Origin: Alphaproteobacteria bacterium CG11_big_fil_rev_8_21_14_0_20_39_49
GTDB taxonomy: Bacteria > Pseudomonadota > Alphaproteobacteria > Rickettsiales > UBA6187
Length of the DNA stretch: 64,000 nucleotides
NCBI GenBank assembly: GCA_002787635.1
Contig: PCXK01000024.1
Coordinates: 1 to 64,000 of the forward strand
Reading direction: 5' to 3'
Position numbers and translations under genes: made by a program. Below the pieces are notes generated by a model, which was not told the origin of the DNA, did no database searches, and saw only the letters and a list, made by a program, of their open reading frames with translations. Shown in pieces: positions 39,464-41,316 of the stretch; the stretch's first letter is position 1; each line of letters opens with the position of its first letter.

Positions 39464-39915
39464 CTATAGAAGCCTCTGTAAAAGGGGTATTCTTGTCGGT
39501 ATATGGCTTAAAAAGTCCCCTCACCCGCTGAGGGTAGGGAGGGGGCGATAACCTTAGGTAATCCCAACTATTCATAAGTCGTTATCTAACTATGATTTTT
39601 TTAATTGCACTGTAAACAGTCATTCCGGCGAAAGCCGGAATCTAAGCATAACAAAGAAGTACACACGAAGTGTGTGCATTATTTTTAAGCTTGGATACTA
39701 TGGTCAAGCCATAGTATGACGGATTTTTTATTTTTACAAACTCCTTATACGTAAACGAGCTTATCGTATATTACTTCAATCGGTTACGGCAGTTCTTGTC
39801 CATAGTTAGGGTTAGGTAAAACAAATAGTTGTAAGTGCAGAATCCCCTCACAAAACACTGCCGTGTTTTAACTCCCCCTCAAGAGGAGAGTAGTTTTTTA
39901 GGACTTTTGCAGAGG
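39464..39915. repeat. Family D element interrupted by another palindrome
   Basis: Left end CTATAGAAGCCTCTGTAAAA (39464-39483) and right end CTTTTGCAGAGG (39904-39915) match the ends of the copy at 29192-29360. The interior shares GGGTAGGGAGGGGGCGA and CTCCCCCTCAAGAGGAGAG with it. At 452 nt it is nearly three times longer, because it contains a separate family B element (39619-39720) and further unassigned sequence. It fills much of the 842-nt gap between FTR1 and the LpxR-like gene. Confidence 0.8.
39619..39720. repeat. Family B three-hairpin element
   Basis: Bounded by GTCAT and ATGAC. It holds three hairpins in order: ATTCCGGCGAAAGCCGGAAT (39622-39641), ACACAC-GAA-GTGTGT (39661-39675) and ATACTATGG-TCAAG-CCATAGTAT (39695-39717). 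ATCTAAGC and GCTTGGAT pair across the middle. The element at 50167-50269 has the same plan and length but different stem sequences. Confidence 0.8.
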
Positions 39916-39950: not shown

Positions 39951-40033
39951 GAAAAGGGAGGCTTCCGGTTAGAACTTTGAACGCAAGGGAGATACATAAG
40001 GAGTGCAAAGTAGGATAACAACCGAAAGCCTAT
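39951..40033 (-). ncRNA. Candidate small RNA with an anti-Shine-Dalgarno-like loop
   Basis: A consensus promoter at 40040-40068 would start transcription at about 40033 on the minus strand. Two bases later begins a 12-position stem, AGGCTTTCGGTT (40031-40020) with AACCGGAAGCCT (39970-39959), one mismatch. A second stem ACTTTG/CAAAGT (40011-40006 with 39979-39974) encloses a 26-nt loop containing CACTCCTTA and ATCTCCC, complementary to ribosome-binding sites (UAAGGAG, GGGAG). The closing stem is followed by CCCTTTTCTTG, a weak U tract. Alphaproteobacteria have small RNAs with such C/U-rich loops, but I do not recognise this one. It is divergent from the LpxR-like gene. Confidence 0.6.
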
Positions 40034-40039
40034 GCACAT

Positions 40040-40068
40040 ATAGTATAAGCTGGTGTTATACATGTCAA
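40040..40068 (-). promoter_or_regulatory. Consensus sigma-70 promoter of the small RNA
   Basis: On the minus strand: TTGACA (40068-40063), exactly 17 nt, then TACTAT (40045-40040). The -35 box is a perfect consensus. The predicted start lies next to the first base of the small RNA stem. No protein-coding gene follows on this strand before the FTR1 region. Confidence 0.65.
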
Positions 40069-40224: not shown

Positions 40225-41316
40225 GTGGTTAAAAATTATATTTGTTTCCTGTGTAAATTAGATTATAAACAGGGTATGAAATTCATACAAACATTCCTAG
40301 TATTAAATGTATTGAGCGTATTTGCGTATTCAAACGCATTTGCACAGGACAACTCCAGCCTTGAAGAGGTTGTAAATAATAACATAAAATCTAAAAAAGA
40401 CCGCAGCTATTTTACTTTAACGGTAGAAAACGACCTGTTCGGAGCCGGAACGGACCAAAACTATACTTCGGGAATCCGGCTTAGTTGGTTTGAACTCGGT
40501 AAGAAGCCGCCCGGTGTTACGGAAAATCTGGAGAAAATATTTCCATGGCTTGAAATTAATGATGTTACATCGGTTTCTTATTCTATAGGGCAAGGTATGT
40601 ACACACCCGATAGAATAGATAAGGTAGCTCAGGACGATTCCGACCGTCCTTGGGCGGCGTTCCTTTACGGCTCTATGGCAATGGTAACCATTAAAGACAA
40701 TTATGTTGATGATTATGAGGTTACCCTAGGTGTAATAGGACCGTTAGCATTAGGAGAAGAAGGGCAAAAAGGCGTTCATAAGCTTATAGAAAGTCCTGAG
40801 CCGAAGGGGTGGGATAATCAGCTTAAAAATGAGCCGGGCTTAATACTTGCGTGGCAGCGTAGATGGCCGGAAGCTTTATCTGCCGAGCTTGGCAATTATG
40901 TTGCCGCTATTGAGCCTCATTTCGGGTTTTCATTGGGGAATGTATATACCTATGCCAACACAGGAGGTATAGTAAAATTTTCTCATAAAAATAATAGATT
41001 GCAGGATAAGCCGTTGCTTGTAAAACCGTCAATGCCGGGAACCGGATATTTCCCGACTCCTGCCAAATTTGACTGGCAGCTTTTCGCAGGATTAGAAGGG
41101 CGTGCTATCGCAAGAAATATATTCCTAGACGGTAATACATTTGCCGACTCACACAGCATCGACAAAGAATATTTTGTACTCGATGCAAGTGCAGGTGTTT
41201 CTTTCACCGTAGGGAATGCCCGTATCAGCTATACCACCGTTTACCGCACTAAAGAGTTTGAAGATCAGAATAAGGACTCGATATTCGGAGCCGTAAGCGT
41301 AGGGTATAACTTTTGA
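40225..41316 (+). CDS. LpxR-like lipid A deacylase family outer-membrane protein
   Basis: SYFTLTVENDLFGAGTDQNYTSGIRLSWF (segments about 53-80) is the hallmark start of the LpxR barrel: the N-D-x-F and T-D-x-x-Y-T-x-G motifs line the active site of the 3'-O-deacylase. Further barrel blocks are YSIGQGMYTPDRID, DRPWAAFLYGSMAM and WDNQLKNEPGLILAWQRRW. The C-terminus ends in Phe (GAVSVGYNF) for BAM recognition. The start is either GTG 40225 (AGGG nine bases upstream) or ATG 40276, which begins the signal peptide KFIQTFLVLNVLSVFAYSNA directly. It probably trims acyl chains from lipid A; enzymatic activity is inferred. Confidence 0.88.
   Translation: MVKNYICFLCKLDYKQGMKFIQTFLVLNVLSVFAYSNAFAQDNSSLEEVVNNNIKSKKDRSYFTLTVENDLFGAGTDQNYTSGIRLSWFELGKKPPGVTENLEKIFPWLEINDVTSVSYSIGQGMYTPDRIDKVAQDDSDRPWAAFLYGSMAMVTIKDNYVDDYEVTLGVIGPLALGEEGQKGVHKLIESPEPKGWDNQLKNEPGLILAWQRRWPEALSAELGNYVAAIEPHFGFSLGNVYTYANTGGIVKFSHKNNRLQDKPLLVKPSMPGTGYFPTPAKFDWQLFAGLEGRAIARNIFLDGNTFADSHSIDKEYFVLDASAGVSFTVGNARISYTTVYRTKEFEDQNKDSIFGAVSVGYNF

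Follow-up and report, generated by a model that had tools for sequence, protein, structure and literature searches.

A small-RNA family with its own predicted promoter and a C-rich hairpin loop in Alphaproteobacteria, and a copy of the hairpin in a phage contig

The minus strand of the window (the whole 64,000-nucleotide stretch of DNA analyzed here) almost certainly carries a member of a genuine small-RNA family that is previously uncatalogued and has a narrow known distribution. Structured, promoter-bearing, and found in five genera, the RNA combines strong covariation with a near-invariant loop yet appears in no RNA library, and it would add a new RNA family to an alphaproteobacterial branch that is Hfq-less and little studied. 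Its most interesting side is a phage-borne copy. An earlier note made from the sequence had proposed a small RNA, so far undescribed, that has a promoter of its own, and that proposal is now well supported by a promoter conserved in five genomes, by covariation, and by the absence of any Rfam match. The phage copy, the absence of Hfq, and the narrow distribution are features that the note did not foresee.

The features of the element in the window are as follows.

40063..40068, minus strand: −35 box TTGACA, the same hexamer in all five bacterial copies
40040..40045, minus strand: −10 box TACTAT, separated from TTGACA by a 17-nt spacer
40033, minus strand: predicted transcription start A, 7 nt past the −10 box, placed from the promoter position
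39951..40031, minus strand: small-RNA gene as modelled, 81 positions (covariance model, 106-109 bits)
40020..40031, minus strand: closing stem, 5′ arm, AGGCUUUCGGUU; 7 of 12 pairs changed on both sides among relatives
40006..40011, minus strand: inner stem, 5′ arm, ACUUUG, from the fold; varies little, so offers little covariation evidence
39980..40005, minus strand: 26-nt loop within the inner stem
39998..40005, minus strand: CACUCCUU, first anti-Shine-Dalgarno (anti-SD)-like segment, mostly unpaired by unpaired probability
39993..39997, minus strand: weak apical helix, 5′ side, AUGUA (p ≈ 0.5 in the window copy)
39986..39992, minus strand: UCUCCCU, apical loop and second anti-SD-like segment; invariant across the six copies
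39981..39985, minus strand: weak apical helix, 3′ side, UGCGU (p ≈ 0.5 in the window copy)
39974..39979, minus strand: inner stem, 3′ arm, CAAAGU; one pair broken in the G003 copy
39959..39970, minus strand: closing stem, 3′ arm, AACCGGAAGCCU, from the fold and the covariation of relatives
directly 3′ of the closing-stem 3′ arm, minus strand: pyrimidine-rich tail CCCUUUUCUU

The promoter, TTGACA-N17-TACTAT, matches 10 of 12 consensus positions and is the top minus-strand site of the region, and the predicted start A at 40033 lies two bases ahead of the closing stem, which begins at 40031. This stem comprises 12 pairs in the window copy (11 Watson-Crick and one U-G), and none of 3000 shuffles of the flanks gave a stem of equal quality. 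The minus strand folds with an energy of −21.8 kcal/mol (z −4.0; 0 of 200 shuffles equally good), versus a z of just −1.9 for the plus strand at the same place. The promoter, the predicted start, the 12-position closing stem, the 6-bp inner stem, and the 26-nt loop all lie where the earlier note had put them. Within the 26-nt loop there is probably one more helix, a weak apical one (AUGUA/UGCGU) that would display UCUCCCU at its tip; in G028, a genome from another family of the same order, this helix is ACA/UGU, with one change on both sides. In the predicted folds, UCUCCCU has an unpaired probability of 0.98-1.0 in all six copies, and that of CACUCCUU is 0.71-0.81 in the family and phage copies and 0.25 in G028. 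Because promoter-like matches are frequent in this region (12 found versus 7.8 expected), the case depends on comparison with relatives.

Bacterial copies occur in four genera of one family, the window's own among them, and in a single genus that belongs to a different family within the same order. Among five genomes of the family, four genera were positive (its own, G002, G003, and G004), and the fifth genome, G001, which is 77% complete, gave no match to the element. A first covariance model built from three family copies independently found both the G003 copy (65.7 bits) and a phage copy (56.3 bits). A second model found the G028 copy at 27.8 bits (E 8e-4 per genome), a weak score that is backed by facts outside the model: an upstream TTGACA-N16-TATGCT, a closing stem of nine pairs that only 1 of 3000 shuffles matches, and an intergenic place between csrA and tolB. 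G028 scores 65 bits with model R3, which contains it, so that this score is not independent. At this locus (L137, 1501-1883), csrA immediately precedes the RNA gene and shares its strand, tolB follows, and flgB/flgC-like genes adjoin. In G003 (L004, 1575-1596), the 3′ arm of the RNA overlaps the end of the prepilin peptidase frame in antisense, so that the arm is coding and yet pairs.

Strictly filtered covariance-model searches, covering 344 genomes from the order and 385 from the class, gave no further convincing members, although distant members may escape such filters. No convincing homologue was seen in the Rickettsia-like genomes searched, the Rfam 15 models matched nothing at the element, even with E values as high as 5 allowed, and plasmid and phage databases returned either 29-nt matches inside an efflux gene alone or nothing. 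Several candidate matches were set aside as chance: L136 and L142, which are distant model matches antisense within one protein family; L145/L146, L116, L117, L138-L141, L143, L144, and L147-L150, in which the promoter or the core is missing; and the viral contig L292, a loose-pattern match that the model does not score and that overlaps the start of a coding frame.

Although the promoter lay outside the search models, TTGACA is present in all five bacterial copies with a −10 box at a distance of 16-17 nt, reading TACTAT or TACCAT in the family copies and TATGCT in G028. The neighborhood is different in every copy read (FTR1/lpxR-like genes in the window, then ispH, pgk, prepilin peptidase, and csrA/tolB in G028), and the RNA is therefore not the leader of one gene. 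In the closing stem, seven pairs show changes on both sides with 97.6% of cells paired, which none of 500 shuffles and none of the slid registers attain, and adding G028 brings the count to eight; the alignment was made via the covariance model and fitted to its structure, which somewhat favors covariation. We used this alignment because MAFFT placed the G003 3′ arm off by one base. Five of six copies contain G-U pairs in the closing stem on the minus strand whose plus-strand equivalents are A-C mismatches, so that these pairs are sensible on the minus strand only. The 38-nt hairpin within it, ACUUUGCACUCCUUAUGUAUCUCCCUUGCGUUCAAAGU, shows 0-2 changes within the family, and with the inner stem nearly invariant, covariation speaks neither for nor against that stem. 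The earlier note had set missing conservation of the stems in relatives as a refuting outcome, and this check came out in favor of the RNA: the stems are conserved, the closing stem by compensatory change. The tail, at most a putative terminator, is U-rich in G004 (UCUUUUU) and not in every copy, and the copies show no terminator in common.

These comparisons make it scarcely credible that something resembling a promoter and a hairpin merely arose here by chance in intergenic DNA rich in repeats, an explanation that the abundance of promoter-like matches would otherwise favor. The promoter and the covariation are conserved in five genera and four further neighborhoods, and the element occurs once in its own genome (2,302,289 of 2,303,631 bases covered), so it is not one of the surrounding repeats. 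Homologues that keep the promoter, the compensated stem, and the loop bear out the earlier argument that the agreement of these features exceeds chance. The intergenic repeats adjoining the RNA gene (window 39600-39716) include TGGATACTATGGTC, present 36 times in the genome, and CATTCCGGCGAAAGCCGG, present eight times. On the other side, the plus strand of 40225-41316 encodes an outer-membrane protein whose relatives in alphaproteobacterial MAGs reach at most 59% identity and which we take to resemble LpxR/DUF2219.

Comparison of frames across the copies revealed no conserved protein frame. It is very improbable that the locus encodes a short peptide starting at a UUG in the loop (LHSLCISLAFKV...), even though such a frame stays open across the core in the phage copy and in those of the family, and one two-base change in G002 is synonymous. 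The frame, the one open in most copies, lacks a ribosome-binding site, differs in length and C terminus between copies, and is shifted in G028, and coding would leave the compensatory changes in the stem unexplained.

An exact scan of IMG/VR identified a single contig with the hairpin, IMGVR_UViG_3300021425_000262 (19.6 kb; L119), which encodes terminase subunits, a major head protein, and a helicase. The copy lies on the phage coding strand, preceded by another gene and followed by that for the small terminase subunit. Its 38-nt inner hairpin is identical to that of the window, and its closing stem, AACAGCCUU/GGGGCUGUU, has nine pairs, is unrelated in sequence to the bacterial stems, and is equaled by 32 of 3000 flank shuffles (≈1%). 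We did not find the bacterial promoter at the phage copy, which would therefore come from a phage transcript, and the RNA was not found in phages with related terminases.

RNA genes are common integration sites for phages, and the ≈40-48 nt that are identical between phage and window could be read as DNA rather than RNA, namely as the core of an attachment site in a small-RNA gene into which the phage integrates. We consider this highly unlikely. The phage copy flanks the core with its own complementary closing stem, the identity stops short of both ends of the gene, none of the five bacteria has an interrupted gene, and the covariation of the stem includes G-U pairs; no tyrosine integrase is encoded on the 19.6-kb record, which could be incomplete. 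That the hairpin recurs in the phage within an unrelated stem is enough to point to the active part of the RNA and suggests that phages gain from imitating it. It is possible, though less likely than not, that phages carry the working hairpin of the small RNA of a lineage without detectable Hfq on a stem of their own, imitating the host riboregulator or seizing its protein or ribosome partner during infection.

A search for Hfq in the five family genomes, two of which are more than 90% complete, found none, whereas the control search worked. Given this absence and the likeness of the hairpin to anti-SD and UCCC loops, we judge an Hfq-less block of translation to be the likeliest mechanism, and we hold it about as likely as not that the loop of this free-standing, structured small RNA of ≈80 nt with its own promoter leads such a block at translation starts. 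A minus-strand transcript of ≈80 nt would start from the RNA's own promoter, of the sigma-70 type, and the closing stem would hold out and stabilize the hairpin. The unpaired, C-rich UCUCCCU and CACUCCUU segments would first touch the purine-rich ribosome-binding sites of several mRNAs and, without Hfq, block their translation; during infection, this active hairpin would also come from the phage copy.

The notion of an anti-SD loop, put forward in the earlier note, is plausible as to shape and composition: the C-rich segments, apart from CACUCCUU in G028, are predicted to be mostly unpaired and able to pair with SD sequences, the end of the host 16S rRNA being CUGGAUUACCUCCUUUC. It fares less well in complementarity. 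Over 2,056 start regions predicted in the host genome, complementarity to the core was not above that of dinucleotide-shuffled cores, which reached the real core in 30 of 60 cases for the best score, 7 of 60 for the top-20 mean, and 23 of 60 for the overall mean. The start-region calls are crude and seeds of 6-8 nt would escape this comparison, so the null result weakens the anti-SD idea rather than excluding it. No standout site complementary to the core emerged genome-wide. The best-looking candidate targets, cheR and cydB, were rejected since their complementarity is lost in orthologues, and the suggestion that the RNA regulates translation of membrane proteins found no support. Two further points speak against anti-SD action: CACUCCUU is mostly base-paired in the fold predicted for G028, and the near-total invariance of 38 nt exceeds what short seed pairing usually needs.

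Because these 38 nt are so nearly frozen, the main rival to pairing with mRNAs is an interaction with a protein or the ribosome. The RNA would then be real, with a frozen hairpin that binds a conserved protein, the ribosome, or RNA polymerase as a decoy or scaffold, and the phage copy would titrate the partner. We regard this as a serious but less probable alternative. In its favor, the core is the same in window and phage and almost unchanged from genus to genus, whereas the closing stem drifts freely, neither mRNAs nor other genomic sites show complementarity above shuffles, and the copying of the active hairpin by a phage suits a decoy. Against it, we recognized no known protein motif, and the single-stranded C-rich segments suit base-pairing RNAs at least equally. 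Nor is the element 6S RNA: the 6S model (RF00013) has no match there, and 6S-like sequences sit elsewhere in three genomes (G000, G002, and G003). These Rfam matches (L132 at G000:C7:63739-63897, L130, and L131), at 27-41 bits, are below the gathering threshold and are probably divergent 6S RNA. The covariance model and exact coordinates make the RNA directly testable.

Among known small RNAs, the closest likeness is to AbcR1 and AbcR2 of rhizobia (alpha-r15), which use two unpaired anti-SD motifs, CUCCUCCC and UUCCCCUC, one of them in a hairpin loop (PMC8844928). Like these alphaproteobacterial RNAs, the present one has two unpaired, C-rich, anti-SD-like segments. It differs from them in sequence, in its one long closing stem around a single hairpin within ≈80 nt, and in having no Rfam match, no Hfq found, and no target shown. 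Anti-SD-type motifs in loops are also shared with NfeR1 (alpha-r14) of Sinorhizobium meliloti (PMC8844928) and BbsR14 of Bartonella, but NfeR1, at 115 nt, repeats an identical motif three times, BbsR14 has two TTCCTCCTAA loops, and we found no sequence relation to either. The lack of an Rfam match indicates no homology to alpha-r15 or alpha-r14, assuming that both families are in the library.

The accessible UCUCCCU loop also resembles the UCCC hairpin loops with which staphylococcal Rsa RNAs and RNAIII contact SD sequences without needing Hfq (PMC3861533); those RNAs are from Firmicutes, are non-homologous, and have known targets. Rickettsia small RNAs may share the order of the present family, and one of them, Rc_sR42, acts on cytochrome bd oxidase mRNA (PMC9960880). 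A site in cydB was also a candidate here, but it is not conserved. Finally, AgvB, a phage-encoded anti-small RNA of Escherichia coli O157 (PMC4104026), is an earlier case in which a phage-borne RNA is linked to a small RNA of the host. AgvB mimics a target and sponges the host RNA, whereas the phage copy described here shares both strand and core with the host RNA and so would mimic it rather than sponge it.
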